From: Cellulosimicrobium sp. Marseille-Q4280
GTDB taxonomy: Bacteria > Actinomycetota > Actinomycetes > Actinomycetales > Cellulomonadaceae
Length of the DNA stretch: 64,000 nucleotides
Direction of reading: 5' to 3'
NCBI RefSeq assembly: GCF_943181405.1
Contig: NZ_CALPBY010000002.1
Location: forward strand, 434,001-498,000
A program made the position numbers and the translations under genes. Of the stretch, positions 1,495 through 28,847 are shown in pieces. Each line of letters opens with the position of its first letter. Position 1 is the stretch's first letter. The notes below the pieces were generated by a model. The model was not told where the DNA came from and ran no database searches. It worked only from the letters and a program-made list of their open reading frames with translations.

Positions 1495-1546
1495 GGTCGC
1501 GCGGCGCGAGCCGCGATCCTCAGGCGAGGCAGGACGAGCAGGGGCG

Positions 1547-3449: not shown

Positions 3450-3451
3450 CG

Positions 3452-4873: not shown

Positions 4874-4905
4874 GCGACGGGCGGTGCGCCGGTACCTCGG
4901 GACGC

Positions 4906-5007: not shown

Positions 5008-5064
5008 ATGCGTGACGAACCAGGTCACGAGGAGGGCGCCGTGAGTCCCGAGGAGGCGAGATGA
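5008..5064 (+). CDS. Possible 18-residue leader peptide coupled to garA
   Basis: The frame encodes MRDEPGHEEGAVSPEEAR and its TGA overlaps the garA ATG (ATGA), the arrangement used for translational coupling in the operons around it. An AGGAG lies 12 bases upstream but within the GGAGC hairpin, so its use could depend on folding. The frame also stays open upstream to ATGs at 4951 and 4960. It may be a regulatory upstream frame or chance in GC-rich DNA; no homologue is recognised. Confidence 0.25.
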   Translation: MRDEPGHEEGAVSPEEAR

Positions 5065-6301: not shown

Positions 6302-6326
6302 GCCGCACGAGGCGGGTCCCCCAGAC

Positions 6327-6361
6327 CTGCCAGATGCCCGCGACCGTCGTACCGTGGACGG
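6327..6361 (+). promoter_or_regulatory. Leaderless promoter for the DUF151 gene
   Basis: CTGCCA (6327-6332, four of six matches to TTGACA), a 17-bp spacer, TACCGT (6350-6355) and then six bases to the GTG at 6362. No Shine-Dalgarno sequence precedes that GTG. The geometry puts the transcript start at the start codon. Confidence 0.55.
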
Positions 6362-6853
6362 GTGAGCGACGACGTGCCGATGGTCCCCGTGGAGGTCCTC
6401 GGCGTCCGTCAGCAGCAGCGGGACCAGGAGATCGTGGTGCTGCTGCTCGACGGCGCGTCCGACCTCGTCGTGCCCATCGTCATCGGTCCGCGCGAGGCGA
6501 GCGCCATCGCGATGGCGCAGGCCGGTCTGCCCACGCCGCGACCGATGACGCACGACCTGCTGCGCGACCTGCTCGAGGCGGTCGACGTCCGGCTCGAGCG
6601 GGCCGAGATCGTCGCGCTCGACGGCGGGATCTTCTTCGCCGAGCTCGTGCTCAGCAACGGGGCACGGCTCGACTCCCGGGCGTCGGACGCCATCGCCGTC
6701 GCGGTGCGCACCGGCAGCCCCGTGCTCTGCTCGGCCGAGGTGGTCGCGACCGCCGGCGTCGAGGTGGTCGACGTCACCCAGCAGGAAGAGGTCGAGCGGT
6801 TCCGCGACTTCCTCGAGCACGTCACCCCCGAGGACTTCACCACCGAGGAGTGA
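6362..6853 (+). CDS. DUF151 (bifunctional nuclease family) protein
   Basis: 163 residues, typical of the family, with the conserved core LLDGASDLVVPIVIGPREASAIAMAQAG, then RPMTHDLL and RASDAIAVAVR near the C-terminus. Plant members have been reported to cut both RNA and DNA; the bacterial role is not established. The position between two MerR genes matches Rv1829. Its own leaderless promoter suggests expression partly independent of garA-ftsR. The 198 bases between its stop and the next gene hold no clear coding frame. Confidence 0.88.
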   Translation: MSDDVPMVPVEVLGVRQQQRDQEIVVLLLDGASDLVVPIVIGPREASAIAMAQAGLPTPRPMTHDLLRDLLEAVDVRLERAEIVALDGGIFFAELVLSNGARLDSRASDAIAVAVRTGSPVLCSAEVVATAGVEVVDVTQQEEVERFRDFLEHVTPEDFTTEE

Positions 6854-7051
6854 CACGAGCGAGGAGCGCTTCCCGTCATCACCGCAGCATCCGACTCAAC
6901 CGGACAGAACGGACCTTCGACCTCAGGTCGAGGGTGAAGGACCGCCGTGCAGGGGGTGAGGTGGGCGACACGCCCGACGCGTCGGCTCGTCGGTCGTTGA
7001 CGGCCCCCTGCGGCGCCCATAGCGTGGACGAGGACACCCCAGGAGGCGACA

Positions 7052-7642
7052 GTGAAGAGCAGCGGTGAGGCGAGCGTCGGGTCCGGCGCGACGGTTCCGC
7101 ACGGTGCACAGGGTCTCCTCTTCGGGGAGGACATCACCGAGCAGGACACCACCACCGGCTACCGCGGCCCCACCGCGTGCCGGGCCGCCGGCATCACCTA
7201 CCGACAGCTCGACTACTGGGCACGCACCGGACTCGTCGAGCCCACGGTGCGGCCCGCCGCGGGGTCGGGCTCCCACCGGCTGTACAGCTTCCGCGACATC
7301 CTCGTCCTCAAGGTCGTCAAGCGACTGCTCGACACCGGCGTCTCCCTCCAGCAGATCCGCACCGCCGTCGAGCACCTGCGCGAGCGGGGCGTCGACGACC
7401 TCGCGCAGATCACCCTCATGAGCGACGGCGCGAGCGTGTACGAGTGCACGTCGCCGGACGAGGTCGTCGACCTCGTCCAGGGTGGACAAGGAGTCTTCGG
7501 CATCGCCGTAGGTCGCGTGTGGCGCGAGGTCGAGGGCACGCTCGCGGAGCTGCCGACCGAGTCGCTCGAGGACGTCGCCGAACCCGAGGTGAGCGAGCAG
7601 GACGAGCTCGCCGCGCGCCGTCGGGCACGCTCCGCCGGCTGA
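7052..7642 (+). CDS. MerR-family transcriptional regulator (Rv1830 family)
   Basis: 196 residues. The MerR helix-turn-helix is at about residues 36-105 (CRAAGITYRQLDYWARTGLVEPTV, SHRLYSFRDILVLKVVKRLLDTGVSLQQIRTAV). The C-terminal half (GASVYECTSPDEVVDLVQGGQGVFGIAVGRVWREVEGTLAEL) is typical of the Rv1830 branch and contains no metal-binding cysteine cluster. The GTG start has AGGAGGCGAC directly upstream. The ligand and target genes are not known from sequence. It closes the conserved pgsA-to-merR block. Confidence 0.88.
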   Translation: MKSSGEASVGSGATVPHGAQGLLFGEDITEQDTTTGYRGPTACRAAGITYRQLDYWARTGLVEPTVRPAAGSGSHRLYSFRDILVLKVVKRLLDTGVSLQQIRTAVEHLRERGVDDLAQITLMSDGASVYECTSPDEVVDLVQGGQGVFGIAVGRVWREVEGTLAELPTESLEDVAEPEVSEQDELAARRRARSAG

Positions 7643-7793
7643 CAGCCGCCGTAGGGCCGGCGGGCCCCGCTCTGTGGAGCACGTCACACGCCCGGCGAGG
7701 CCCCTGCGCCGGGGTGCGTGGGAGGATCGGCCCGAAGCCGGTCGGGGTCGGCAGCGCAGACCCGTGGCCGGACGGTCCGTCGGATGGAGTGCC

Positions 7794-10700
7794 GTGTTCT
7801 CGAAGGTCCTTGTCGCCAACCGTGCCGAGATCGCCGTCCGCGCGTTCCGCGCCGCGTACGAGCTCGGGGCGCGGACGGTGGCCGTCTTCCCGCAGGAGGA
7901 CCGCAACTCCGAGCACCGCCTCAAGGCGGACGAGGCCTACGCCATCGGCGAGCCCGGGCACCCGGTGCGGGCCTACCTCGACATCGAGGAGATCGTGCGC
8001 GTCGCGCGCGAGTCGGGTGCCGACGCCGTCTACCCCGGCTACGGCTTCCTCTCCGAGAACCCCGACCTGGCGCGCGCGTGCGCCGACGCGGGGCTGACGT
8101 TCGTCGGCCCACCTCCCGAGGTCCTCGAGCTCGCCGGCAACAAGGTGCGCGCGCTCAGGGCGGCGCGCGAGGCGGGGCTGCCCGTCCTCGCGTCGTCGGA
8201 GCCGTCCGCCGACGTCGACCAGCTCCTCGCCGCGGCCGACGCGGTCGGGTTCCCCGTGTTCGTCAAGGCCGTCGCGGGCGGTGGCGGGCGCGGCATGCGA
8301 CGTGTCGACACGCGCGAAGACCTTCCCGAGGCCCTCGCCGCCGCGATGCGCGAGGCCGACGGCGCGTTCGGCGACCCGACGGTGTTCCTCGAGCGGGCCG
8401 TGCTGCGGCCCCGCCACATCGAGGTGCAGATCCTCGCCGACGGCGCCGGGAACGTCGTGCACCTCTACGAGCGCGACTGCTCGCTGCAGCGCCGGCACCA
8501 GAAGGTCGTCGAGATCGCGCCCGCCCCGAACCTCGACCCCGCGATCCGCGACGCGCTGTGCGCCGACGCGGTGCGGTTCGCGCGCCACATCGGCTACCAG
8601 AACGCCGGCACCGTCGAGTTCCTCGTCGACACCGTCGGCGAGCGCGCCGGCCAGCACGTGTTCATCGAGATGAACCCCCGGATCCAGGTCGAGCACACCG
8701 TGACCGAGGAGGTCACCGACGTCGACCTCGTCTCCGCGCAGATGCGCATCGCGGCGGGGGAGACGCTCGAGGACCTCGGGATCCGTCAGGAGGACGTGCG
8801 GGTCAACGGTGCCGCCCTGCAGACCCGTATCACGACGGAGGACCCCGCGAACGGGTTCCGACCCGACACCGGCCGGATCATCGCCTACCGCTCGCCCGGC
8901 GGGGCGGGCGTGCGGCTCGACGGTGCGACCGCGACCGCCGGGTCGGAGGTCTCCGGCCACTTCGACTCCATGCTCGTCAAGCTCACGTGCCGCGGTCGCG
9001 ACTTCCCGACGGCGGTCCGCCGCGCCCGGCGCGCGCTCGCCGAGTTCCGCATCCGGGGCATCCGCACCAACATCCCGTTCCTCCAGGCGGTGCTCGCCGA
9101 CCCGGAGTTCGTCGCCGGGAACGTCGCCACGTCGTTCATCGACGAGCGCCCCGAGCTGCTCTCCGCCCGCGAGAGCGCGGACCGGGGGACGCGGCTCCTC
9201 GCCTACGTCGGGGACGTCACCGTCAACCGCCCGCACGGCGCACCGCGCGCCGTGGCGGACCCGGCGCTCAAGCTGCCCGCGCTCGACCTCGGCGTCGCCG
9301 CGCCGCCCGGCACGCGCCAGGAGCTCCTCGAGCTCGGCCCGGAGGGCTTCGCCCGCGCGCTGCGCGCCGAACAGCGCCTGCGCGTCACCGACACGACGTT
9401 CCGCGACGCGCACCAGTCCCTGCTCGCGACGCGCGTGCGCACGCACGACCTCGCCGCCGTCGCGCCGTACGTCGCGCGCGCCACACCCGGTCTGCTGTCC
9501 GTCGAGGCGTGGGGCGGGGCGACGTACGACGTCGCGCTGCGGTTCCTCGGCGAGGACCCCTGGGAGCGGCTCGCGACGCTGCGCGACGCGATGCCCAACC
9601 TCGCGATCCAGATGCTGCTGCGCGGGCGCAACACCGTGGGATACACGCCCTACCCGACGCAGGTCACGCGCGCGTTCGTCGCCGAGGCCGCGGCGACGGG
9701 GATCGACGTCTTCCGCGTCTTCGACGCCCTCAACGACGTCGACCAGATGCGCCCCGCGATCGACGCCGTGCGCGAGACCGGGACCACGGTCGCCGAGGTC
9801 GCCCTGTGCTACACCGGCAACCTGCTGGATCCCGCAGAGGACCTGTACACGCTCGACTACTACCTGCACCTCGCCGACCGCATCGTGGAGGCCGGGGCGC
9901 ATGTCCTCGCGATCAAGGACATGGCCGGGCTCTTGCGCCCCGCCGCCGCCGCGCGACTCGTCGCCGCCCTGCGCGAGCGGTTCGACCTTCCCGTGCACCT
10001 GCACACCCACGACACCGCGGGCGGCCAGACGGCGACCCTCCTTGCCGCTGCGGCGGCCGGCGTCGACGCCGTCGACGCCGCGAGCGCCGCCCTGGCGGGG
10101 ACCACGAGCCAGCCGTCGCTGTCGGCGCTCGTCGCGGCGCTCGAGCACACCGAGCGTGACACGGGGCTGTCGCTGCGCGCCGTCGCGGACCTGGAGCCGT
10201 ACTGGGAGGGCGTGCGGCGTGCCTACGCGCCCTTCGAGTCCGGGCTCCCTGGACCGACGGGCCGCGTGTACGAGCACGAGATCCCCGGGGGTCAGCTGTC
10301 GAACCTCCGGCAGCAGGCGATCGCGCTGGGGCTCGGGGAGAAGTTCGAGCAGATCGAGGCGATGTACGCGGCCGCGGACCGCATCCTCGGTCGCCTCGTG
10401 AAGGTGACGCCGTCGTCGAAGGTCGTGGGCGACCTCGCGCTGCACCTCGTGGCGGCCGGCGCCGACCCGGCGGAGTTCGCGGCGAACCCGCAGGCGTTCG
10501 ACATCCCGGACTCGGTCGTCGGGTTCCTCGGCGGAGAGCTGGGTGACCCGCCGGGCGGGTGGCCCGAGCCGTTCCGGTCCCGGGCGCTCGAGGGGCGCGC
10601 CGCACGTGCCGGCGTGACCCCGCTGACCGACGAGGACGAGGCGGAGCTCGCGCAGCCGGGCCCGGTGCGCCGTCGTCGGCTGAACCACCTGCTCTTCGCG

Positions 10701-11192
10701 GGACCGACGAAGGAGTTCGAGCAGGTGCGCACGACGTTCGGGGACGTGTCCGTGCTGGACACCCCGACGTACCTCTACGGGCTGGAGCCCGGCCAGGAGG
10801 TCGCGGTCGGCCTCGAGAGGGGCGTGCGGCTCCTCGTCGGTCTCGAGGCGATCGGGACGCCGGACGGACGCGGGATGCGGACCGTGATGTTCACGCTCAA
10901 CGGCCAGCTGCGCCCGATCCAGGTCCGGGACCGCGCGGTCGACGCGGACGTGCGGGCCGCGGAGAAGGCGGACCCGACGCAGCCGGGCCAGGTCGCGGCG
11001 CCGTTCGCGGGCGCGGTGACGCCGGTCGTGGCGGCCGGCGACGTCGTCGAGGCCGGGCAGACCGTCGCGACCGTCGAGGCGATGAAGATGGAGGCGGCGA
11101 TCACGTCGCCCGTCGCGGGCACGGTGCAGCGCGTCGCGATCGGCGCCGTGCAGCAGCTCGAGGGCGGCGACCTGGTCCTGGTCGTCGGGTGA
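7794..11192 (+). CDS. pyc: Pyruvate carboxylase
   Basis: 1132 residues, the normal length of the single-chain enzyme, which makes oxaloacetate from pyruvate, bicarbonate and ATP. Domains in order: biotin carboxylase (about 1-460; KAVAGGGGRGMR ATP-grasp loop, ERDCSLQRRHQKVVE, EMNPRIQVEHTVTE), carboxyltransferase (about 530-810; VTDTTFRDAHQSLLATR, metal-site LHTHDTAG), the PC-specific region, and biotinyl domain with EAMKMEA (biotinyl lysine near K1098). The GTG at 7794 fits the family N-terminus (VFSKVLVANRAEIA). As the anaplerotic enzyme it feeds the oxaloacetate pool, functionally close to the TCA control exerted by GarA upstream. Expression appears separate from the merR gene (151-bp gap). 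Confidence 0.96.
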   Translation: MFSKVLVANRAEIAVRAFRAAYELGARTVAVFPQEDRNSEHRLKADEAYAIGEPGHPVRAYLDIEEIVRVARESGADAVYPGYGFLSENPDLARACADAGLTFVGPPPEVLELAGNKVRALRAAREAGLPVLASSEPSADVDQLLAAADAVGFPVFVKAVAGGGGRGMRRVDTREDLPEALAAAMREADGAFGDPTVFLERAVLRPRHIEVQILADGAGNVVHLYERDCSLQRRHQKVVEIAPAPNLDPAIRDALCADAVRFARHIGYQNAGTVEFLVDTVGERAGQHVFIEMNPRIQVEHTVTEEVTDVDLVSAQMRIAAGETLEDLGIRQEDVRVNGAALQTRITTEDPANGFRPDTGRIIAYRSPGGAGVRLDGATATAGSEVSGHFDSMLVKLTCRGRDFPTAVRRARRALAEFRIRGIRTNIPFLQAVLADPEFVAGNVATSFIDERPELLSARESADRGTRLLAYVGDVTVNRPHGAPRAVADPALKLPALDLGVAAPPGTRQELLELGPEGFARALRAEQRLRVTDTTFRDAHQSLLATRVRTHDLAAVAPYVARATPGLLSVEAWGGATYDVALRFLGEDPWERLATLRDAMPNLAIQMLLRGRNTVGYTPYPTQVTRAFVAEAAATGIDVFRVFDALNDVDQMRPAIDAVRETGTTVAEVALCYTGNLLDPAEDLYTLDYYLHLADRIVEAGAHVLAIKDMAGLLRPAAAARLVAALRERFDLPVHLHTHDTAGGQTATLLAAAAAGVDAVDAASAALAGTTSQPSLSALVAALEHTERDTGLSLRAVADLEPYWEGVRRAYAPFESGLPGPTGRVYEHEIPGGQLSNLRQQAIALGLGEKFEQIEAMYAAADRILGRLVKVTPSSKVVGDLALHLVAAGADPAEFAANPQAFDIPDSVVGFLGGELGDPPGGWPEPFRSRALEGRAARAGVTPLTDEDEAELAQPGPVRRRRLNHLLFAGPTKEFEQVRTTFGDVSVLDTPTYLYGLEPGQEVAVGLERGVRLLVGLEAIGTPDGRGMRTVMFTLNGQLRPIQVRDRAVDADVRAAEKADPTQPGQVAAPFAGAVTPVVAAGDVVEAGQTVATVEAMKMEAAITSPVAGTVQRVAIGAVQQLEGGDLVLVVG

Positions 11193-12066: not shown

Positions 12067-13320
12067 CTACAGCAGCGGGCGCAGCGGTGTGAGCACGACC
12101 TCGCCCAGCTTGGCGGCGAGCGACCGGGTCTCCCACTCGGCGAGCGTCAGCTCACGCGTGTTCGACAGGTCGACCGCGAAGATCTTCTCCATCTGCTCCG
12201 CCACGCCCTCGTCCGTGATCTCGAGGTTGACCTCGTAGTTGCCCGTGAGGGACAGACGGTCGATGTTGGCGGTCCCGATCGTGGTCCACCGGCCGTCGAT
12301 GGTCGCGGTCTTCGCGTGCACCATGGCGTCCAGGTAGAGGTGGATGCGCACGCCGCCCTTGAGGAGCGAGGTGTACAGGCCACGCGCCAGCCAGTCGGCG
12401 ACGACGTGGTTGGAGCGCTCGGGGACCAGCACGCGCACGTCCACGCCGCGCGCTGCCGCGGTGAGGAGCGTCGCGAGGATCTCGCGGTCCGGGATGAAGT
12501 ACGCCTGCGTGATGTAGACGTGGGAGCTCGCGCGGTCGATCGCGTCCAGGTAGATGCCGCGGATGGGGAACACGAGGTGCGCGGGGGCGTTGCGGGCGGC
12601 GCGCAGGCGAGGCTCCCAGTGCATCGACCCCGGGTCGGCGAGCATCGGCTGGCCCTCCGCGCGGTTCGCGTTCCAGAAGTCGACGAACGCGTTCCGCAGC
12701 TCCCACGTGCTCGGCCCCTCGAGCCGGACGTGCGTGTCGCGCCACTGCGTCGCGTACAGGGCGCCGATGTTGTAGCCGCCGACGAAGCCGATCTGGTCGT
12801 CGACGACGAGGATCTTGCGGTGGTCGCGCCCGGACTTGCGGACGTTGAGCATGAGGATCCCCGGCCGGAACACGGGGTACCGGATGACGTGGACCGACTC
12901 GGGGAGGTCGTAGAAGTCGCGGGGGACGACGAGGTTGGCGAACCCGTCGTAGATGACGAAGACCTGGACTCCCCGCTCGCTCGCCTCGACCAGCGCCTGC
13001 TTGAACTGCTCACCGACCGCGTCGGCCTTCCAGATGTACGTCTCGAGCAGGATGCACTGCTGGGCACCGCGGATCGCGGCGAGCATCTCCTGGTAGAGGT
13101 CGTCGCCGAAGGTGTAGACGGTGGCCGTCGTCCCGGCGACCTCGGCCTCGGCCGGCGCCGACCTCGGGAACGAGGCCTCGGTCGTGTTGCGTCGCTTGCG
13201 GATCGCGTCGGCGACGACGAGCGCGCCCGCGACCGTCGCCGGGACGGCGACGGTGAGGACGAGCGCTCGTGCCGCGATGCGCCGGGCCAGCTGCCAGGAG
13301 ATGTCGGGGAGGATGCGCAC
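12067..13320 (-). CDS. Phospholipase D-family protein, cardiolipin synthase-like
   Basis: 417 residues with an N-terminal membrane segment (ALVLTVAVPATVAGALVVADAI). Two HKD motifs are intact: HRKILVVDD in the first half and HAKTATID in the second, each followed by the expected small-residue stretch (GGYNIGALY; TANIDRLS). Such proteins transfer phosphatidyl groups, most often making cardiolipin from two phosphatidylglycerols, but the family also contains phosphodiesterases. The GTG at 13320 is chosen because TACGGT (minus strand, 13327-13332) sits six bases upstream, the leaderless pattern. A longer upstream extension is open but compositionally unlike protein. Confidence 0.85.
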   Translation of the reverse strand: MRILPDISWQLARRIAARALVLTVAVPATVAGALVVADAIRKRRNTTEASFPRSAPAEAEVAGTTATVYTFGDDLYQEMLAAIRGAQQCILLETYIWKADAVGEQFKQALVEASERGVQVFVIYDGFANLVVPRDFYDLPESVHVIRYPVFRPGILMLNVRKSGRDHRKILVVDDQIGFVGGYNIGALYATQWRDTHVRLEGPSTWELRNAFVDFWNANRAEGQPMLADPGSMHWEPRLRAARNAPAHLVFPIRGIYLDAIDRASSHVYITQAYFIPDREILATLLTAAARGVDVRVLVPERSNHVVADWLARGLYTSLLKGGVRIHLYLDAMVHAKTATIDGRWTTIGTANIDRLSLTGNYEVNLEITDEGVAEQMEKIFAVDLSNTRELTLAEWETRSLAAKLGEVVLTPLRPLL

Positions 13321-13441
13321 GTGCTCACCGTAGTCGCCGCGGCCCGCGATGCGAGCGCAGCGGCGAGGGGCACGCGGGTGACGTCCGTCCCGTCCGTCCT
13401 GCTGGGCGCCCCGGGACGCGCCCGGGGACGCCGGCACGACA

Positions 13442-13711
13442 TCAGTGCGAGCGCAGCGCCTTGACCAGCTCGGCCTTGCGCATCGAGGAGCGGCCCTCGA
13501 TGCCGATCTCCGCCGCACGCCGGCGGAGCTTCTCGACGGTCCAGTCGTCGTAGTCGCCGCTCGTGCCGCCCTTGCGGCCGACCGACTTCCGTGACGACCC
13601 GGCGGCGGCGTTCGCGATGCGCGCCGCCTTCTCCTTCGAGTCGCCCTCGTCGCGCAGCTTCTCGTACAGCTCCGGGTCCTTGACGCTCGGTCCGGGGTCA
13701 CGCCTGGGCAT
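13442..13711 (-). CDS. Small basic DUF7218 / Rho-N-like protein
   Basis: 89 residues. The first half carries the conserved string MPRRDPGPSVKDPELYEKLRDEG and SKEKAARIANAAA; the second half is a SAP/Rho-N-like helical unit (DDWTVEKLRRRAAEIGIEG then MRKAELVKALRSH), a fold that often binds nucleic acid. The protein is strongly charged. GAGGAGGCGACC precedes the ATG. No reaction is known for the family, and the neighbours do not reveal a role. Confidence 0.75.
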   Translation of the reverse strand: MPRRDPGPSVKDPELYEKLRDEGDSKEKAARIANAAAGSSRKSVGRKGGTSGDYDDWTVEKLRRRAAEIGIEGRSSMRKAELVKALRSH

Positions 13712-13820
13712 GGTCGCCTCCTCGGTCGACGGGTGTGGCGGGTGTCGTGCAACCGCCCGCTCCTCCCAGCGTCGCCGCGCGGTACGTCCCTCGCACGTCG
13801 GCCCGGTCGGTGCCCTCACG

Positions 13821-15296
13821 TCACTCGTGCACGACGAGCTGACCGAGCGCCGGGTCCAGGTGGACCAGCCGTCCGCCGACCGCGCGGAACCCGGCCGCGC
13901 CGAGCGGGTACTCCTCGTCCCAGACGACGTCGCCCCGCTCCAGGTCGAGCGCCACGACCCGAGCACCACCGGAGCCGTCGAGCGAGGTGATGACGAGTGC
14001 GGCGACGAACCCGTCGGTGAAGGCGCCGACGATCTGGTCGGTCGTCCCCAGGCTCTCGCGCTCCCACGACCAGACCTCGCGACCGGAGGCGAGGTCCACG
14101 CCGAGGACGACGTACCCGAGGTCGAGCGCCGCGGTGCCGTCGGCCACCACCACGACCTGGGAGACGGTGCCGCTGAGCGTCCAGCGCTCGTTCCCGGACA
14201 GGTCGACCGCCTGCACGCCGCTCGGTACGAGGAGGAGCCGGGTCGGGTCGGCCGTACCGTCCGACGCGAGGGGCACGAGAGGACGACCGGGCACGATGCG
14301 CTCGACCGTCCCGTCGGTCCGGACGAGCTCGGTGATCTGGACCGCGCCTGTCGCCGAGCCGCTCGTCGTGCGCAGGAAGGTTCCGGCGCGAGACCCGAGC
14401 ACCTGCGACGTCACGGGTTCACCGCGGTCGTCGACGCGGGCGCCGTCGAGGGTGAACACGGCGCTGAGCCGGCACCCGCGCAGCACGATCAGGCCGTGCT
14501 CGACGCGCGCCGTCGCGTACGCCGACACCTGAGGGCGGCACAGGTCGGTCCGGGCGAGGTCGTCGGGAGCGACGGTGGACCGCCAGCGCACGGAGGCGTC
14601 CGTGGCGTCCTGCACGGCGACCTCCAGCACGCCGCCCGTGCGCTGCCACCGCACGACGTGGCCGTCCGGGACGGCGATCGCCCGCCCGAGACCGTCGCCG
14701 AGGTCGGTGCGCGAGGCGACCGTCCCGTCCGCGCTCAGGACCCAGGCCCGCGGGTCGTCCTCAGGGCCGGTGAGGCACACGAGCGCGTCCAGCGGTGCGC
14801 TCGACAGGTCCTCGGGCGAGGGCCCGCAGCGCGGCGGACCGCCGAGGTCGGCCGACCAGCGCGCCTCTCCGTCGGACGGGTCGAGTCCCACGACGGTGTC
14901 CGACTCCACGACGACGAGGGCGTCGCCGAGGGCCCACGCGTCGAGACCGGTCGTGCTGGTCGTCCACTGCCCGACGGGCGGCGTCGCGAGCGACGCGACC
15001 CCACCGTGCGCGTCGAGGAGGGCGAGGCGACCGGCCCGCGACTGCCAGAGGCTGCTCGCCACGAAGACCGCGGCGACCAGGGCGACGGCGACCACCGCCG
15101 TCACGACGCGTCGTCGTGCCGACGGGGGGCCACCACCGGCGGAGGGCTCGACCGGGAGGTGTCGCTCCCCGGGTGTCGCGCGCCGTCCGTACGAGGGGTC
15201 GGGCCGGACCGCGTCGTCCGGTGCGAGCTCGTCCGTCTCGACCAGCTCGAGCCGCCGGAGCGCGTCCTCGCGCCGGTTCGCGACCATGCAGCGCAC
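13821..15296 (-). CDS. Membrane-anchored PQQ-type beta-propeller protein
   Basis: About 491 residues: a cytoplasmic N-terminus of some 60 residues, a single membrane segment (VVTAVVAVALVAAVFVASSLW), and an extracytoplasmic repeat domain with propeller-like motifs (VVGLDPSDGEARWSADLGG, VLGVDLASGREVWSWE, VVALDLERGDVVWDEEY). Such domains usually bind partners or ligands; no dehydrogenase catalytic residues are evident. The start is either GTG 15296, four bases after a GGAG, or ATG 15287. It begins one base after the Xer-type recombinase stop, so the two form an operon, an odd pairing for which no function is known. Confidence 0.72.
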   Translation of the reverse strand: MRCMVANRREDALRRLELVETDELAPDDAVRPDPSYGRRATPGERHLPVEPSAGGGPPSARRRVVTAVVAVALVAAVFVASSLWQSRAGRLALLDAHGGVASLATPPVGQWTTSTTGLDAWALGDALVVVESDTVVGLDPSDGEARWSADLGGPPRCGPSPEDLSSAPLDALVCLTGPEDDPRAWVLSADGTVASRTDLGDGLGRAIAVPDGHVVRWQRTGGVLEVAVQDATDASVRWRSTVAPDDLARTDLCRPQVSAYATARVEHGLIVLRGCRLSAVFTLDGARVDDRGEPVTSQVLGSRAGTFLRTTSGSATGAVQITELVRTDGTVERIVPGRPLVPLASDGTADPTRLLLVPSGVQAVDLSGNERWTLSGTVSQVVVVADGTAALDLGYVVLGVDLASGREVWSWERESLGTTDQIVGAFTDGFVAALVITSLDGSGGARVVALDLERGDVVWDEEYPLGAAGFRAVGGRLVHLDPALGQLVVHE

Positions 15297-15297
15297 A

Positions 15298-16380
15298 CTA
15301 CTCCGCGCTGCTGTGGCGAGGGCCCGCCTCCTGACCGCCCGCGAGCGCCCCGCTGAGGGGGTGGGACCGGATCGCCGCGGCGAGCTCGCCCTCGATACGG
15401 TCCAGGTAGACCCCGGTCGTGGCGATGGACGCGTGACCGAGGAGCTCCGCGACGACCTTGACGTCCCAGCCGTCGGCCGCCAGGAGGGTCGCGGTCGTGT
15501 GCCGCAGCGCGTGCGGTGTGGCCTCGCGCCGGTACTGGTCGGGCATGCGGTCGATGCACCGACGCAGCAGCGCGCGCACGGCCTGGGCGTCGATCCTGCG
15601 CCCGCGCCACGAGAGGAGCAGCGCGCGCTGCGCGTCGGCGTCGTCGGGACGACGGGATCGCAGCAGCGGGCGCAGGCGTGCGAGGTACTCCTCGAGGGCG
15701 TCCGCGAGCGGCGGGGACAGCTCGACCGTCCGTACGTGACCGCCCTTCCCGTGGATGCGCCATCGCGTCCGGTCGGGTTCGCGGGCGAAGTCGTCGACGT
15801 CGGCGCGCACCAGCTCGGAGACGCGTGGCCCCAGGACGAGGAGCAGCGCGACGACGAGGCGGTCCCGCAGGCGTAGGTCGTGGTCCTGACGCGAAGGGCC
15901 GACCGGCGCGTCGTCGGTGGCCACCGTGAGCAGCGCCGCCGCGGACCCTGCGGAGAGGGCCGTGCGCGCGACCCGGAGGCCGTCGCGCAGACGGGCCGGG
16001 GGAGCGGCCCACTGCATGGGGTCGGCCTGCACCCACCCCTCTCGGGACGCGTGGGCGAAGAACCGCGTGAGGGACTGCCGGAACCGGTTGACGGTCGCGG
16101 GGGAGCGGCCGGTGCCGCCGGGCTTGCGGGTCGCGTCCTGGTAGCGGAGGTCGGGAGTCGTCTGGTAGCGCACGAGCACGTCGTCGACGTCGTCGCCGGT
16201 GACGTCGTCCAGGGTGCGCCCGGGACCGACGAGTCGCGTGAACTCGCGCACGTCGCGGACGTAGCTGCGCTGCGTCGTGACCGAGAGCACGCCGCGCACG
16301 GTCTGCGACGCGACGCTCGCGAGGTAGCGGTCGGCGGCGTCCTGGACGGTGACGAGATCGAGGCGGGGCGGTGCGACCAT
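15298..16380 (-). CDS. Tyrosine site-specific recombinase, XerC/XerD type
   Basis: 360 residues, slightly longer than XerC/D. The N-terminal SAM-like core-binding domain covers about residues 12-130 and the catalytic domain 150-340. All catalytic residues are visible: R186 (GPRVSEL), K212 (HGKGGHVRTV), H290 and R293 (HALRH), H316 (LLGHASIATT) and the nucleophile Y325 (GVYLDRI). The ATG at 16380 has AGGGAG upstream. The gene lies about 1.5 kb from a dif site, so it could be the dif recombinase itself or the integrase of an element using dif. No excisionase or phage gene is adjacent, which favours a housekeeping or domesticated enzyme. Confidence 0.9.
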   Translation of the reverse strand: MVAPPRLDLVTVQDAADRYLASVASQTVRGVLSVTTQRSYVRDVREFTRLVGPGRTLDDVTGDDVDDVLVRYQTTPDLRYQDATRKPGGTGRSPATVNRFRQSLTRFFAHASREGWVQADPMQWAAPPARLRDGLRVARTALSAGSAAALLTVATDDAPVGPSRQDHDLRLRDRLVVALLLVLGPRVSELVRADVDDFAREPDRTRWRIHGKGGHVRTVELSPPLADALEEYLARLRPLLRSRRPDDADAQRALLLSWRGRRIDAQAVRALLRRCIDRMPDQYRREATPHALRHTTATLLAADGWDVKVVAELLGHASIATTGVYLDRIEGELAAAIRSHPLSGALAGGQEAGPRHSSAE

Positions 16381-16462
16381 CCCTCGCGGTCTCCCTTCGG
16401 CGTGGACGCCGGCCAGGGTGGCCGGGCACGCCGAGCCTAGGCCCGGGCACCGACACCGCAGG

Positions 16463-17161
16463 TCAGAGCGGGTGGACGACCTCGCCCAGCGACACGACGC
16501 CACGGTTGCCGAAGAACGCGTCCTCACGCAGCGTCGTGATGCTCCCGGACGGCACCGGGAAGGTCACGTGCCCTACCGCCTCGACGGGCATCCCGATCCA
16601 CGCGGCCACGACGAAGGTCGCCGCGAAACCGTGCGTCACGATCACGAGGTGGTCACCGTCGTGCGATGCCAGAGCGGTCGACGTCGCCGTGTAGACACGG
16701 ATCGCGAGGTCGAGACGCGTCTCGGCGCCGTCGACGCCCTCGTGGTGACGCAGCCGGTCACCGACCCGCGGGGGCGGGACGAAGCGGGCGTCCAACCATT
16801 CCTGCGGCCGGCCCTCGGCGACCCCGTACGACTTCTCGCGCAAGCGGGTGTCGTAGCCCGGCACGACGTCGAGGGCGCGGCCGATCGCGTCCGCGGTCCG
16901 GCGCGTGCGCTGCAGGTCCGAGGCCACGATGCCCGTACCGGCGGCTCCGGGGATCCGGTCGCGCAGGACGGCGCCGAGCCGGTCCGCTGCACGGGCACCC
17001 GCCGGCGTCAGGTCGGAGTCGTGCTGACCCCCGACGATCCCGTCCACGTGGTGGGTCGCCTCGGGGTGGGTGACGAGGTGCACCGTCCGGGCCCGGGGCG
17101 GGACCTGGCCGGGGACGGGTGGCGGGGGAGCGGACGGCGCAGGGAGTGGTTCCGGGGGCAC
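16463..17161 (-). CDS. Histidine phosphatase superfamily protein with altered RHG motif
   Basis: About 232 residues. The fold is recognisable from SDLTPAGARAADRLG, ASDLQRTRRTADAI and VIVTHGFAATFV (second histidine). The usual first motif R-H-G-E reads T-H-P-E here (VTHPEATHHVDG): the phospho-acceptor histidine is kept but the preceding arginine is threonine. This may change substrate or reduce activity. The GTG at 17161 has AAAGGG upstream; the extra Pro-rich 25 residues would be absent if translation began at GTG 17083. The substrate is unknown. Confidence 0.72.
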   Translation of the reverse strand: MPPEPLPAPSAPPPPVPGQVPPRARTVHLVTHPEATHHVDGIVGGQHDSDLTPAGARAADRLGAVLRDRIPGAAGTGIVASDLQRTRRTADAIGRALDVVPGYDTRLREKSYGVAEGRPQEWLDARFVPPPRVGDRLRHHEGVDGAETRLDLAIRVYTATSTALASHDGDHLVIVTHGFAATFVVAAWIGMPVEAVGHVTFPVPSGSITTLREDAFFGNRGVVSLGEVVHPL

Positions 17162-17310
17162 GGGATCCACCCTTTCATGAGGGTGCGGGGCCGGACACCC
17201 GACCCTCGAGCCGCTGCCGCGCCGCACGAGGTGGCTGCGCGAGGACCGCTCGGGCGATGAGCGGGACCCACGCAGGACGGCTGTGCGCGTCCTGGGCGTC
17301 ACCGCTCCGA

Positions 17311-17343
17311 TAGGATGGTGTTGACCTAAACACACTGGTTTAG
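17311..17343. promoter_or_regulatory. AT-richer motif cluster with a dyad operator-like site
   Basis: In the 197-base gap between the phosphatase gene and the next minus-strand gene, a plus-strand TAGGAT (17311-17316) precedes a perfect inverted repeat CTAAAC-ACACTG-GTTTAG (17326-17343). TAATGTCC at 17347-17354 repeats the core of the dif site 500 bp away but its arms do not match. No plus-strand gene follows closely, so whether the dyad controls the minus-strand phosphatase gene is unclear. Confidence 0.35.
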
Positions 17344-17358
17344 CCCTAATGTCCGATT

Positions 17359-17784
17359 CTAGAGATCGTAGCCGAACCCGCGGTCCCTGGCCAGGGTGAG
17401 CGACGCCGTGGTCGCGGGGCCGTCGCGTCGGCTCGAAGGCTCGGTGGTGGTGTCCGTGGCAGGCGTCGCGCCGAAGGCGCTGCCGTGAGGCAGAGTCGGC
17501 ACCGGCCGGGCGGAGCGCGCAGGGGACACCGTGCGCCAGGTCCAGACGCAGGCCGTCGCGAGGCTTGCGGCGACGGCGACGAGCAGGAACGCGACGAGCG
17601 AGACGATGACGACCGGCACGGCGACCAGAGCGCCCAGAAACCTCGAGGCGTCCCGGGGCTCGCCGTCACGCACGCGTGGGCGCTCACGGCGCGTTCTCGG
17701 CGACCGCAGCTCGGCGACGGGTGCCGTGGGCACGACGACGGCGCGGGCCGGTCGGGCCGCGGCAGGTGCAGTCGTCGTCGTCAT
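17359..17784 (-). CDS. Small single-span membrane protein, unknown function
   Basis: 141 residues with one strong hydrophobic segment (FLGALVAVPVVIVSLVAFLLVAVAA, about 49-73). An Ala/Pro/Arg-rich N-terminus precedes it and a Thr/Ser-rich tail follows. No family is recognised. There is no Shine-Dalgarno sequence before the ATG and no obvious -10 box, so the coding call rests on the continuous frame and the membrane helix. Its start lies 59 bases from the dif site. Confidence 0.5.
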   Translation of the reverse strand: MTTTTAPAAARPARAVVVPTAPVAELRSPRTRRERPRVRDGEPRDASRFLGALVAVPVVIVSLVAFLLVAVAASLATACVWTWRTVSPARSARPVPTLPHGSAFGATPATDTTTEPSSRRDGPATTASLTLARDRGFGYDL

Positions 17785-17843
17785 GCTCGGGGGGAGGTTT
17801 CACCGCCGCCCGGTGATGCACGACGACACCTCTGTCCTCGGCG

Positions 17844-17871
17844 AAGTGACATAATGTCCATTATCGGCGCT
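17844..17871 (-). other. dif: Chromosomal dif site (XerCD recombination site)
   Basis: 28-bp site with two 11-bp arms around a 6-bp centre. Read on the minus strand: AGCGCCGATAA (XerC-type arm), TGGACA (centre), TTATGTCACTT (XerD-type arm; compare TTATGTTAAAT in E. coli). It agrees with the actinobacterial form as remembered (CGCCGATAAT...ACATTATGTCA). dif is where XerC/XerD resolve chromosome dimers and normally marks the replication terminus. Gene orientation on the two sides fits this. It lies between two minus-strand genes and inside neither. Confidence 0.85.
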
Positions 17872-17964
17872 TAGACTGGTGCGCGTTGCCCTGGATGCAA
17901 GGACTCGCACCTCGCAGCGAGATCGACGTGCGCGTTGGTCGGTGGTCTCGCCCCTCCGTACGGC

Positions 17965-18471
17965 TCACCCGATGATCTCTATCGGGGCGAAGGGGTTCTG
18001 TGCGCAACCGACGCTCGGGTCGATCTCGCAGATCGTCTTGGCGCCCTGGAGTCTGAGGGACACCTCGGCTTTGCCGATCGGGATGTCGTCCGGGACACGG
18101 ATGGTGCCCTGTGCAGAACCGTCGCTCTCAGGGTCCAGAGAACCGAGAGTCGTCGAGTGGCGCATGTCCGGGTCGCTGTCGGGCTCCGCAGAGACGATCG
18201 AGACCTCGTACCGAGCGTGTGCCGGCATGCTCGGCTCGCAGTCCACATCGCCCTCGCGCCCAACGGTCTCGATCTGCAGGACATCGCCAGGTGCCGCACT
18301 CTGCGGCGTCACAGTCGGGTCTTCAGGCTGGCAGTCCGCCGTCAGATCGGCACCCGCAACGCTCGAGCAACACGTCATCGCTCCCAAAGCGACGCTGACG
18401 ACGGCAAGGCGTAGCGCCCGCGCCGCCCGGGGCGAGGTCCCGCTGGGGAGCGCAAACCGATACCGCGTCAC
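17965..18471 (-). CDS. Secreted protein of unknown function
   Basis: 168 residues. A basic N-terminus and hydrophobic stretch (ALRLAVVSVALGAM) followed by CCSSVAGA suggest export; the cysteine context is a poor lipobox, so a cleaved signal peptide is as likely as a lipoprotein. The mature part begins like a bacterial Ig-type segment (TVTPQSAAPGDVLQIE) and has four further cysteines. The GTG has AGGA nine bases upstream and a minus-strand TAGGGT at 18496-18501, giving a short leader. Base composition is lower in GC than the core genes. No function is proposed. Confidence 0.6.
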   Translation of the reverse strand: MTRYRFALPSGTSPRAARALRLAVVSVALGAMTCCSSVAGADLTADCQPEDPTVTPQSAAPGDVLQIETVGREGDVDCEPSMPAHARYEVSIVSAEPDSDPDMRHSTTLGSLDPESDGSAQGTIRVPDDIPIGKAEVSLRLQGAKTICEIDPSVGCAQNPFAPIEIIG

Positions 18472-24904: not shown

Positions 24905-25426
24905 TCAGTCGTCGAAGACGTTCCAGCAGATCGGGCTCCTCAGGCGTTGGTCGTCGAGGACGAGCTCGCGAACCTCCTCAGGGATCCGCTCGCGCTGCCA
25001 GTCCCGCTCGGCGACGCGGGCCGCCTCGCCCTGCCCCCTCGTCGCTGCCTCTGCCGCCGCCGCACGGATCGCGTACGCCGCGGCGCCGAGGTCGTGCGCC
25101 GCGACGTGCGCGACCGCGACCGCCTGCCCGGCCGCGAGCGCCGCGTACTTCGCGGGGGCGGGTTGGTCGCGTCCGGCGGCGTTCGCGGGGAACGCGGCGC
25201 GGTGGGCGTCGCGCACGGGTACGTCGCCGCGCATCCAGCCGCGTGCCGTCTCGAGGGCGCCCCGGGGCCGTGTGTCGTCCGGTCGGGCCTGTTCGAAGAG
25301 GGGCAGGACGTGGTCGGCGCAGAGGATCGCCCACTCGGCGAGCAGACGATGGTGGTCGTCCGTCAGGGATCCCCCGCGGCGCACGGTGATCAGTCGGGGG
25401 TCCCTGTCGGTCGGGAGGATGGGCAT
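24905..25426 (-). CDS. Imm-5-like putative immunity protein, orphan
   Basis: 173 residues, largely helical and alanine-rich. Recognisable strings: HHRLLAEWAILCADHVLPLFEQARPDDTRPRGALETARGWMRG, DAHRAAFPANAAGRD, AAGQAVAVAHVAAHDLGAAAYAIRAA, and the C-terminal ERDWQRERIPEEVRELVLDDQ. This is the family labelled Imm-5-like by analogy with polymorphic-toxin immunity proteins. No toxin gene is adjacent, so an immunity role is doubtful here. The ATG at 25426 begins the conserved region; upstream in-frame sequence contains a pentanucleotide repeat and is unlikely to be translated. Confidence 0.75.
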   Translation of the reverse strand: MPILPTDRDPRLITVRRGGSLTDDHHRLLAEWAILCADHVLPLFEQARPDDTRPRGALETARGWMRGDVPVRDAHRAAFPANAAGRDQPAPAKYAALAAGQAVAVAHVAAHDLGAAAYAIRAAAAEAATRGQGEAARVAERDWQRERIPEEVRELVLDDQRLRSPICWNVFDD

Positions 25427-25500
25427 GCGGCGATTGTGCCGAGAGGGGCTGGGGGTGGGCAATCGCCTCACGCCGCCTGCGGGCGAAGGGAGCATGGTTC

Positions 25501-25535
25501 GTGCCGTGCCGTGCCGTGCCGTGCCGTGCCGTGCC
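25501..25535. repeat. Pentanucleotide tandem repeat, seven copies of GTGCC
   Basis: Seven perfect GTGCC units in tandem, followed by degenerate GCGTC, GTGGC, GTGGC units. It lies in the 140-base gap between the Imm-5-like gene and the alpha/beta hydrolase. Copy number of such perfect short arrays is prone to slippage, and here it would change the spacing upstream of the Imm-5-like gene. Confidence 0.95.
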
Positions 25536-25566
25536 GCGTCGTGGCGTGGCGTCCGGGCGTCGTCGG

Positions 25567-26367
25567 TCACCCGGGGCGCTGTTCGGCGGCGTGCAGGAAG
25601 CGGCGCAGCTCGTGCGTGACGGCTTCGGGCGCCTCGACGGGGCTGGCGTGGCCGGGGCCGGTGAGGACGACGAGCTCGGAGCCGGGTAGGGCGTGGTGCA
25701 GGGCCTCGCCGACCGCGACGGGCGCGCGGACGTCGTGGTCGGCGTACAGCAGCAGGGTGGGCACGTCGATGTCGGGCAGCACGTGGCTCTGGTCGGGGTG
25801 GCTCGCGTGGGCCATCGCCCGGAAGCCTCGTGGGCGGGTCGCGCGGACGCTGTCGACGAAGGCGACCACTCGCTCGCCCTCGGCGGAGGGTGAGAACAGG
25901 GACGGTGCCATCGCGGTGACGAAGACGTCGGGTGGCAGCGTCGATGCCCGCAGCGAGCGCGCCAGCCTCAGGTCGGCCTCCGCGGGGCCGAGGGAGCCGA
26001 CCCAGCCCGCGTACCCGCTCACGAGGGCGAGCGACCGGACGACCCGGCGGTGCCGACGGGCGACCGCGAGCGCCAGGGCTGCCCCGAAGGAGAGCCCGAC
26101 GAGGTGGGCCTGCTCGATCCGGAGCGCCGCGAGGACGGCAGCGAGGCAGTCGGCGTAGCCGTCCATGCCGAGCTCCTCCGGAGGGTCGTCCGACGCTCCC
26201 GCGCCGGGTGCGTCCCAGGCGATCACGGTGAACTCGTCGGAGAGCGCGTCGAGCTGTGCGCCCCAGGTGGCGCGGGCGTCTCCCACGAAGCCGTGCAGCA
26301 GCAGCACCGGGGGCCCGGCCCCGGCGCGCTCGTAGGCGATGCTCAGCCCGCCGACCTTGACGCGCAC
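25567..26367 (-). CDS. Alpha/beta-fold hydrolase downstream of UvrA2
   Basis: 266 residues. Catalytic elements: HGFVGDARATW oxyanion region, nucleophile elbow VGLSFGAALALAVA, acid near LLYADHDVRAPV, histidine in LTGPGHASPVEAPEAV. The GTG at 26367 matches the family N-terminus (VRVKVGGLSIAYERAG). It follows the UvrA2-like gene by 62 bases on the same strand. Substrate unknown; pairing with a drug-resistance-type ABC protein hints at detoxification, which is inference. Confidence 0.85.
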   Translation of the reverse strand: MRVKVGGLSIAYERAGAGPPVLLLHGFVGDARATWGAQLDALSDEFTVIAWDAPGAGASDDPPEELGMDGYADCLAAVLAALRIEQAHLVGLSFGAALALAVARRHRRVVRSLALVSGYAGWVGSLGPAEADLRLARSLRASTLPPDVFVTAMAPSLFSPSAEGERVVAFVDSVRATRPRGFRAMAHASHPDQSHVLPDIDVPTLLLYADHDVRAPVAVGEALHHALPGSELVVLTGPGHASPVEAPEAVTHELRRFLHAAEQRPG

Positions 26368-26429: not shown

Positions 26430-28847
26430 TCAGCCCTGCTCGGCCCCTACGTAGGCGGCGAGGTGCTCCCCGGTGAGCGTGGCGCGCTGCGCCACGAGGT
26501 CGGCGGGTGTGCCCTCGAAGACGACGCGGCCGCCGTCGTGCCCGGCGCCGGGCCCGAGGTCGATGATCCAGTCGGCGTGGGCCATGACGGCCTGGTGGTG
26601 CTCGATGACGATGACGGACTTGCCGGAGTCGACGATGTGGTCGAGCAGGCGCAGCAGGTTCTCGACGTCGGCGAGGTGCAGCCCGGTGGTGGGCTCGTCG
26701 AGGACGATCACCCCGCCGGAGTCCCCCAGGTGCATCGCGAGCCTGAGCCGCTGGCGCTCGCCGCCGGAGAGGGTGTTGAGCGGCTGGCCGAGCTTGACGT
26801 AGCCGAGGCCGACGTCCTTGAGGTGCGCGAGGATCTTGTGCGCGGCGGGGATCTTCGCGTCGCCGTCGTGGAAGACGTCGTGGGCTCGTGCCACGGAGAG
26901 GTCGAGCACCTCGGCGATGTTCAGCCCGCCCAGCGTGTACTCGAGCACGGACGCCATGAAGCGCTTGCCGCCGCAGTCCTCGCACGGCGTCTCGACGGTC
27001 TCCATGAACCCGAGCTCGGTGTAGATGCGCCCGTTGCCCTTGCAGGTGGGGCAGGCGCCCTCGGAGTTGGCGCTGAACAGGGCGGGCTTGACGCCGTTCG
27101 CCTTCGCGAACGCCTTGCGGATCGGCTCGAGCAGGCCGGTGTACGTGGCGGGGTTGGAGCGGCGCGAGCCCTTGATCGCGCCCTGGTCGACGACGACGAC
27201 GCCCTCGTGCCCTGCGAGGTTGCCGTGGATCAGCGAGCTCTTGCCCGAGCCCGCGACACCGGTGACGACGGTCAGGACGCCGGTGGGTACGTCGACGTCC
27301 ACGCCTCGGAGGTTGTTCTGCGACGCTCCTCGGATCTCCAGCGCGCCGGACGGCGTGCGCACGGACTCCTTGACGGCGGCGCGGTCGTCGAGGTGGCGGC
27401 CGGTGAGCGTGTCGCTCGCCCGCAGCTCTTCGACGGTCCCCTGGAAGCAGATCGTGCCGCCGTCGGTTCCGGCGCCGGGGCCGAGGTCGATCACGTGGTC
27501 GGCGATGGCGATCGCCTCCGGCTTGTGCTCGACGACGAGCACCGTGTTGCCCTTGTCGCGCAGGTCGAGCAGCAGGGAGTTCATGCGCTGGATGTCGTGG
27601 GGGTGCAGGCCGATGGTGGGTTCGTCGAAGACGTAGGTGACGTCGGTGAGCGCGGAGCCGAGGTGGCGGATCATCTTGGTGCGCTGCGCCTCTCCCCCGG
27701 ACAGCGTGCCCGCGGGCCGGTCGAGCGACAGGTAGCCGAGGCCGATCTCGACGAACTTGTCGAACAGGTGCAGCAGGCTCGCGACCAGCGGGGCGACGCC
27801 GGGGGCGTCGACGCCCCGCGCCCAGTCGGCGGCGTCGGAGATCTGCATGCGGCACACGTCCGCGATGCCGGCCCCGTTGACCTTCGCCGACCTGGCGGAC
27901 TCGTTGAGACGCGTGCCGTCGCACGCCGGGCAGGGCACGAACACGGCCGCTCGTTCGACGAACGCCCGGATGTGCGGCTGCAGCGACTCGGGGGCCTTGC
28001 TGAACACCGACTCGCGCAGCTTCGGGATGAGGCCCTGGTAGGTCATGTTCATCCCGAGCGCCTTGACCTTCCCCTTCTCGCGGTAGAGGAAGTCGTGCCG
28101 CTCGGTCTCGGTGTAGTCGCGGACCGGCTTGTCGCCGTCGACGAACCCGGACTCGGCGAACCCCTTGACCATCCAGCCGTCCGCCTTGTAGCCGGGCACC
28201 AGGATCGCGCCGTCGTTGAGGGACCTCGACTCGTCGACGATGACGGACAGGTCCAGGTCGGAGACCGTGCCCCGGCCCTCGCACTCGGGGCACATGCCGC
28301 CCAGGTACACCTGGTTGCGCACCACCTTCTTCTCCGTCGTGCCGTCCGCCTTGTCCGTGCTGAACACGCCGCTGGCCGTCGAGGTCGGGACGTTGAACGA
28401 GAACGCCGTCGGCGGCCCGACGTACGGGTCTCCCACGCGGCTGAAGAGGTTGCGCAGCATCGCGTTCGCGTCCGTCACGGTGCCGACGGTCGACCGGACG
28501 TTGGCGCCCATGCGTTCCTGGTCGACCAGGATCGCGGTGGTGATGCCCTCGAGCACGTCGACGTCCGGCCGCGGCAGCGACGGCATGAAGCCCTGCACGA
28601 ACGTCGAGTACGTCTCGTCGATGAGGCGTCGCGACTCGGCGGCGATCGTCGCGAACACGAGCGAGCTCTTGCCCGAGCCCGAGACCCCGGTGAAGACGGT
28701 GAGCCGCCGCTTGGGGATCTCGACGTCCACCTCACGCAGGTTGTTCTCGCGGGCGCCCTGCACGCGGATGACGTCGTGGGTGTCGGCGGCGTGCGGCACG
28801 GACGCTCCCGACGTCGTGGCGTGGCTCGGGGTCTGCGTTGCGGTCAC
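26430..28847 (-). CDS. UvrA-like ABC ATPase (UvrA2 / drug-resistance class)
   Basis: 805 residues, about 140 shorter than UvrA. Two ABC ATPase modules are complete: GVSGSGKSS and LSGGEAQR in the first, GVAGSGKSS and LSGGERQR in the second, with DEPTIGLH and DEPTTGLH. Cysteine zinc modules are kept (CPECEG/CPACDG and CPTCKG/CEDCGG). The UvrB-binding and part of the insertion region are shortened, as in UvrA2 and DrrC-type proteins that protect DNA from intercalating antibiotics. GGAG precedes the GTG start. It probably does not replace the housekeeping UvrA. Confidence 0.88.
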   Translation of the reverse strand: MTATQTPSHATTSGASVPHAADTHDVIRVQGARENNLREVDVEIPKRRLTVFTGVSGSGKSSLVFATIAAESRRLIDETYSTFVQGFMPSLPRPDVDVLEGITTAILVDQERMGANVRSTVGTVTDANAMLRNLFSRVGDPYVGPPTAFSFNVPTSTASGVFSTDKADGTTEKKVVRNQVYLGGMCPECEGRGTVSDLDLSVIVDESRSLNDGAILVPGYKADGWMVKGFAESGFVDGDKPVRDYTETERHDFLYREKGKVKALGMNMTYQGLIPKLRESVFSKAPESLQPHIRAFVERAAVFVPCPACDGTRLNESARSAKVNGAGIADVCRMQISDAADWARGVDAPGVAPLVASLLHLFDKFVEIGLGYLSLDRPAGTLSGGEAQRTKMIRHLGSALTDVTYVFDEPTIGLHPHDIQRMNSLLLDLRDKGNTVLVVEHKPEAIAIADHVIDLGPGAGTDGGTICFQGTVEELRASDTLTGRHLDDRAAVKESVRTPSGALEIRGASQNNLRGVDVDVPTGVLTVVTGVAGSGKSSLIHGNLAGHEGVVVVDQGAIKGSRRSNPATYTGLLEPIRKAFAKANGVKPALFSANSEGACPTCKGNGRIYTELGFMETVETPCEDCGGKRFMASVLEYTLGGLNIAEVLDLSVARAHDVFHDGDAKIPAAHKILAHLKDVGLGYVKLGQPLNTLSGGERQRLRLAMHLGDSGGVIVLDEPTTGLHLADVENLLRLLDHIVDSGKSVIVIEHHQAVMAHADWIIDLGPGAGHDGGRVVFEGTPADLVAQRATLTGEHLAAYVGAEQG

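Follow-up and report, generated by a model that had tools for sequence, protein, structure and literature searches.

Positions 17844-17871 of the 64,000-nucleotide stretch of Cellulosimicrobium sp. Marseille-Q4280 DNA analyzed here (hereafter, the window) almost certainly represent the chromosomal dif site at the replication terminus. It is accompanied, at a distance of 1.5 kb, by a gene encoding a tyrosine recombinase and, between the two, by a second conserved site, both of which were missed when the sequence alone had been examined earlier (the sequence-only reading). Taken as a whole, the region is interpreted, with somewhat more confidence than doubt, as an XerCD dif at the terminus with a separate recombinase-site module kept beside it.

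The dif site is located on the plus strand and comprises two 11-bp arms and a 6-bp center, the complete 28-mer being AAGTGACATAATGTCCATTATCGGCGCT. A 22-base dif pattern whose 5-base center was left free matched the window once at up to three mismatches and had no match in 100 shuffles, which agrees with the sequence-only reading, where similarity to dif in both arms and the center had been noted. In the 4.86-Mb genome, the full 28-mer had this sole match at up to three mismatches and the reversed-pattern control had none; the search for other dif-like sites suggested in that reading thus leaves one copy per chromosome. The comparison with related genomes, also suggested there, gave matches to a 23-base dif pattern at up to three mismatches in all 17 genomes of the genus and in 198 of 221 genomes of the family, with zero matches of the reversed control in every genome listed. 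Between genomes, the center bases were more variable than the arms, and the window dif differs from the commonest sequence in the genus in one arm base and one center base. Read as its reverse complement, the site is similar to the dif of Frankia alni, CACGCCGATAATGCACATTATGTCAAGT, given in the available part of PMC3025954, where XerCD/dif is also reported as predicted in 66 of 66 single-chromosome actinobacterial genomes. Like these actinobacterial systems, the window site is 28 bp long, possesses conserved XerC and XerD arms, lies at the terminus, and is present once per chromosome; nothing essential distinguishes it from them, and in itself it is an ordinary XerCD-type site. Both recombinases were sought in the window's own genome. 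On the contig that carries dif, XerD scored 335.8 bits, over the model cut-off, and an XerC-like gene, identified by its best model and its dprA neighbor, which it adjoins, scored 290.9 bits, best to XerC but under the cut-off; dif lies 175 kb and 389 kb away from the two genes. Chromosome dimers are resolved at dif by XerC and XerD when these meet FtsK, and by analogy with this established mechanism the same would occur at 17844-17871.

The assembly consists of 12 contigs, with dnaA on contig C6 and dif on contig C2. Cumulative GC skew, calculated over 684 of the 735 kb of contig C2, reached its maximum at position 468830 (approximately 34830 in the window), 17 kb from dif or 0.35% of the genome size, so that on its own contig the skew extremum expected near dif by the sequence-only reading was indeed found. 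Mean skew in 10-kb bins of this contig was +0.009 to the left of dif (43 bins) and -0.015 to the right (26 bins), with wide scatter (Mann-Whitney p 0.001, the bins not being independent). In a relative with a one-contig assembly (G004), 41 sampled 20-kb stretches averaged +0.014 on the arm leading from the origin to dif and -0.013 on the other arm, single stretches showing skew of either sign on both arms, and plus-strand coding amounted to 64% and 42% on the two arms. GC skew around dif is weak. In G004, 49.1% of the circle separates dif from dnaA. The position of dnaA was determined for a set of 18 relatives, three of which (G001, G006, G009) carry it on a contig separate from dif; among the 15 measurable relatives, two of which (G013, G147) have further contigs, the distance between dif and dnaA was 46.9-50.0% of the contig circle in 14, and 15.8% in G008. 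In this one-contig relative, dif (position 2058439 of its contig C1) nevertheless has the usual 20-kb neighborhood, and the chromosome may be rearranged or misjoined during assembly. The single dif, the skew peak on its own contig, and the antipodal position in 14 of 15 relatives support the earlier proposal that the window contains the replication terminus, and dif provides a firm terminus anchor for this genome.

Genes in the window were called with a simple GC3-based caller. The sequence-only reading had placed a switch of gene orientation at dif, with plus-strand genes to the left and mostly minus-strand genes to the right. Eight called genes at 1493-11192 are indeed all on the plus strand, and the minus strand carries 15 of the 20 genes called from 19.5 to 49 kb; however, the four genes at 12067-17335, still to the left of dif, are already on the minus strand, so the switch occurs at approximately 11.2-12.1 kb, about 6 kb to the left of dif, and not at dif itself. 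The same reading had proposed that core genes would be terminus-proximal, which holds: a garA-like FHA gene, rbpA, tatC/tatA, and helY are present in the window, their domains were confirmed by Pfam, and dif places garA, rbpA, tatC, and helY near the terminus. A gene that is a frequent neighbor in these loci encodes a phospholipase-D/cardiolipin-synthase-like protein (12067..13752, minus strand), and the start of an ORF for a PQQ/beta-propeller domain protein (13821..15296, minus strand) adjoins the recombinase stop. An ORF of the histidine-phosphatase superfamily (16463..17335, minus strand; true start probably near 17090) lies between the recombinase and the second site, and a relative of it is present in seven of 12 same-genus loci. 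On the other side of dif, the window encodes an Imm5-like putative immunity protein (24905-25570) and a short UvrA-like protein (26430-28847, 805 aa, under the UvrA cut-off), which we take to be of the drug-resistance UvrA type and which is found near dif in several other genera too.

Further dif-like sites were observed in relatives. In the genus labeled g5, three of seven genomes possess a second dif-like site with altered arms. In two of their loci (L144, positions 4593 and 10001; L153, positions 7479 and 14169), the second site is inverted and lies 5.4-6.7 kb from dif, the two sites spanning a UvrA-like gene; in the third genome (G120), it is found on a contig separate from dif. In each of the three genomes, the second site and dif have an identical 6-bp center (TGTACA in two genomes and TGTCCA in the other), suggestive of recombination between them, which could invert the intervening segment. 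In five same-genus genomes, sites with dif arms and another center, TGACATAAGG....TTATCGGCG, were found (L083:2952, L084:10001, L085:10001, L086:10001, and L087:10001), with up to three mismatches to dif; two lie on contigs 55 and 76 kb long, and these sites are possibly pdif sites of plasmids or islands.

The recombinase gene (15298..16380, minus strand, within an ORF at 15298-16527) encodes a protein of 360 aa, the start having been chosen by alignment, in which the catalytic residues R186, K212, H290, R293, H316, and Y325 are all present. Its scores of 130 bits with the XerC model (cut-off 335) and 126 bits with the XerD model (cut-off 330) are far under both equivalog cut-offs, and it was rejected as an orthologue of either. 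As judged from its sequence, it is a third, catalytically intact tyrosine recombinase beside dif, neither XerC nor XerD. It was likewise rejected as an orthologue of XerS (66.8 bits, cut-off 267) and of XerH, to which it matched partly, behind XerA and XerD by sequence. A predicted structure of moderate quality (pLDDT 73, pTM 0.50) found its best fold match in XerH bound to difH (5jk0, TM 0.45-0.47), which may be regarded as a weak hint. The six catalytic residues are intact in 66 of 68 full-length rows of the alignment, a count that leaves out four short or cut rows (L233, L244, L245, L246) of 72, and dN/dS was 0.14-0.26 in five of five pairs, which indicates an intact recombinase under purifying selection. 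The gene looks frame-broken in two loci (L232 and L236), is split in two pieces in three genomes (G159, corresponding to L233; G014; G176), and is partial in another (G186), so it is dispensable.

Linkage of the recombinase to dif is close. In all 12 same-genus dif loci examined, the recombinase lies less than 2 kb from dif. When named genomes were scanned with the recombinase alignment, 71 loci were obtained, 62 of them with dif in the flanking DNA examined, always 5' of the recombinase gene at 0.47-6.5 kb and oriented one way in 59 loci and the other way in three Myceligenerans loci; of the nine loci with no dif in the flank, seven are from Kocuria, and in two the upstream DNA covers no more than 0.5 and 2.8 kb. 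Among the 221 family genomes, 80, belonging to 13 of 25 genera, contained a match to the recombinase at E <= 1e-50, which in a few cases was fragmented or low-scoring, and 141 genomes, some incomplete, had no match at this threshold. Dif positions were listed for 38 of the 80, in 37 of which recombinase and dif are encoded on one contig, 0.6-3.3 kb apart. With at most five candidates scored per genome and E <= 1e-60, matches were obtained in 13 of 396 genomes of the order (12 of the same family, including its own) and in one of 396 genomes of the phylum (its own), and at this threshold the recombinase is, as far as such searches indicate, not general in Actinobacteria. For the sole match from another family (G412), the 4.0 kb examined contained no dif and no second site of the Cellulosimicrobium type, and a scan of 1000 bases revealed no good repeat of the Kocuria type. 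Searches of plasmid and phage records gave two and one records, all partial matches at 39-49% identity. In a recombinase tree, 39 rows formed one group (support 86), the outgroup branches being too long for more.

Alignment of the dif regions of 12 Cellulosimicrobium genomes revealed two strongly conserved blocks, namely dif and a second block situated 0.5 kb from it on the recombinase side, and the DNA between them showed little conservation in either the Cellulosimicrobium or the Promicromonospora alignment. In the window, the second-site core (17312..17339, plus strand) comprises 10-bp arms at 17312-17321 and 17330-17339 and an 8-bp center, and the extended conserved block (17320..17355, plus strand) is present as one copy at up to three mismatches in each of the 17 genus genomes. 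At the same threshold, the Cellulosimicrobium-type block was found in 28 of 221 family genomes, all 28 among the 80 with the recombinase. Across genera, the core is an inverted repeat, approximately ACCnnTGTGT-8 bp-ACACAATGGT, with 7.9 of 10 arm pairs symmetric and none of 300 column shuffles as high; the window core differs from the cross-genus pattern at six of 26 bases, its left arm being degenerate. Using this 26-base pattern at up to six mismatches, the second site was found no more than 1.4 kb from dif, on a single side and in one orientation, in 60 of 63 loci with recombinase and dif (62 named loci and the window). Since these loci had themselves supplied the pattern, this count is partly due to construction, and the far side of dif and the genomes lacking the recombinase serve as fair controls. 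On the far side of dif, no second site was found in either orientation (best 11 mismatches), and it was absent from all 15 dif loci examined, drawn from the 141 family genomes with no recombinase match (best 9 mismatches). These second-site counts leave out the Kocuria dechangensis loci L237, L238, L239, and L241, do not include L243-L246, and drop L224 for lack of a dif in the DNA examined. Same-side matches on the opposite strand, three at up to six and 37 at up to eight mismatches, were taken for the palindromic site read backwards and not for further sites. The distance from the second site to dif was 310-705 bp in 56 of the 60 loci and 827-1237 bp in four (median 551.5 bp), and in the three Myceligenerans loci dif and the second site are flipped as one unit relative to the recombinase. 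The interval between the two sites in the window encodes a small predicted membrane protein of 141 aa (17359..17784, minus strand), which was recognized in eight of 13 other Cellulosimicrobium loci and, by a crude ORF pick, in no other genus, where no common gene was recognized in this interval. At up to five mismatches, no more than one second-site copy per locus was present in 71 loci, and an integron-like layout with insert genes between two copies was rejected on this ground. No hit was returned when 15-20 kb were compared with Rfam at E <= 1, so that the block corresponds to none of the RNA families known.

The three loci of the 63 in which the second site was not found are those of Luteimicrobium album, in which the recombinase gene is broken, Raineyella antarctica, and Kocuria palustris. 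The R. antarctica recombinase (49% identity) has dif 471 bp from the gene, and that of K. palustris (39% identity) has a dif-like site (three mismatches) at 783 bp. These two species, each represented by one genome, share another inverted repeat, TGTCGTAGTA-6 bp-arm, which is separated from dif by 413 and 521 bp. In Kocuria dechangensis, the recombinase gene is present five times (L237, L238, L239, L241, L243), in differing surroundings. Four of the five copies, with no dif in the flanking DNA examined, are preceded, at 220-225 bp before the gene and away from dif, by the arms TGTCGTAGTA/TAANACGACA, with four different 6-bp centers (GAGGAA, GTGCAA, GGCAAA, and GTCTAA). All in all, this repeat follows the recombinase and not dif, and its center changes while its arms do not, which is the pattern expected of a crossover site. 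In five of the six pairs of these four copies, the shared DNA starts within 5 bp of the repeat, and in the sixth it starts approximately 240 bp earlier. A TrwC relaxase gene is located near L239, and a 5.7-kb block of this relaxase stretch recurs at L241 with 84% identity. L237, which has no repeat, shares a 64-kb contig with L239, an arrangement that speaks against one module per plasmid, and the Kocuria module DNA had no match in the plasmid collection. The K. dechangensis copies are possibly a family of mobile resolution modules.

Linkage of the recombinase to dif, conservation of the second site, the near-fixed geometry, and the co-occurrence of recombinase and second site are all observed directly. 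As judged from these patterns, the second site very probably belongs to the 15298-16380 recombinase, which alone would bind and cut the 17312-17339 core. Since the second site is present as a single copy, its only ready partner would be the same site on the sister chromosome, and the most likely reaction would be exchange between sister chromosomes at the terminus, with resolution as the outcome. A single-recombinase resolution system with an XerS/XerH-like layout would then be held next to the two-recombinase XerCD/dif. That the second site and the recombinase serve resolution of sister chromosomes or dimers is given slightly less than an even chance, the remainder being shared by three alternatives. 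If both crossover sites were active at a separation of 0.5 kb, recombination at one might reverse the resolution achieved at the other, which argues against such a module.

The alternative that survives best, although we regard it as unlikely, is that dif alone is of importance and the recombinase is a relic, passed down ever since, of an IMEX-like element once integrated at dif by means of Xer, with the inverted repeat as its old attachment site. Mobile elements that use Xer for integration at dif are known, as described in the available part of PMC5357621, the K. dechangensis kin lie near a relaxase gene, broken recombinase copies exist, and at up to four mismatches 38 extra dif-like matches were found in the 71 loci, compared with 11 for the reversed control, some of them half-sites near dif. 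Many of these matches are half-sites, no single place is common to them across genera, and an old element end may be among them. Decay would fit poorly with the low dN/dS and the catalytic integrity reported above, with the near-constant spacing to dif despite little-conserved intervening DNA, or with the finding of at most one second-site copy per locus. Like an IMEX, the window locus is situated at dif; it differs in having its own catalytic recombinase kept under selection, and no clear second end was found.

Somewhat less probable still is that the inverted repeat controls the recombinase operon as its operator or promoter, to which some other regulator or the recombinase would bind. Operators are typically inverted repeats, and in Oerskovia, some Isoptericola, and other loci the repeat begins 119-179 bp 5' of the recombinase. 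Nevertheless, it is the distance to dif, approximately 0.5 kb, that stays nearly constant, whereas the distance to the recombinase varies up to approximately 6 kb, and in Myceligenerans the repeat is flipped and lies beyond dif. A simple promoter and terminator scan of 16.2-18 kb (16200-18000) returned nothing, including no sigma-70 promoter match, and conserved arms with a changing center fit a crossover site better. PepA/ArgR at cer act as a topological filter, and the spacing and common orientation relative to dif, seen also at 413 and 521 bp in Raineyella and K. palustris, might suggest that recombinase and site likewise serve XerCD/dif as an accessory or regulator and not as a crossover system of their own; this is improbable, as catalytic residues would not then need conservation and a K. 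dechangensis module occurs with no dif in the flanking DNA examined.

The preferred interpretation, a recombinase acting in resolution at its own site beside dif, has parallels among known systems. In the available part of PMC5357621, XerS/difSL of streptococci and XerH/difH of epsilonproteobacteria are described as systems in which one recombinase of about 355 aa is encoded close to its own site, and the same source describes plasmid multimer-resolution modules with their own tyrosine recombinase. Similarly to the former, the window recombinase gene is located near the terminus, close to a core-like site that is putatively its own. In contrast to them, XerC, XerD, and dif are also present in its genome, so that the recombinase is no replacement; it is an orthologue of neither XerS nor XerH, and the centers of the sites described here are 8 bp (or 6 bp) long, compared with 11 bp in difSL. 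With plasmid multimer-resolution modules, the window module shares a recombinase beside a symmetric core, and its K. dechangensis kin lie near a relaxase gene; it differs in being chromosomal, located at dif, and present across genera, whereas the Kocuria contigs are only putatively of plasmid origin. In searches of open-access full text, we recognized no report of a third recombinase or a second site beside dif in these bacteria. To our knowledge, XerC, XerD, and FtsK are all that dif requires, and single-recombinase systems have been known to take the place of XerCD/dif but not to accompany it.

We therefore put forward, tentatively and with more doubt than confidence, that in an actinobacterial clade two independent resolution systems operate at the terminus, the second being a perhaps plasmid-derived recombinase with a symmetric site approximately 0.5 kb from dif, and that this pairing has been made or kept in at least three lineages, namely the Cellulosimicrobium-Isoptericola-Promicromonospora-Oerskovia group, Raineyella, and K. 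palustris. If this is true, the pairing at dif in at least three lineages would imply functional coupling between the two crossover sites, and a recombinase whose own site is kept at a near-constant distance from dif, in genomes that retain dif and, in the one genome checked, XerC and XerD, would open to experiment the questions of why two crossover systems are needed at one terminus and of how resolution modules pass from mobile elements to chromosomes.
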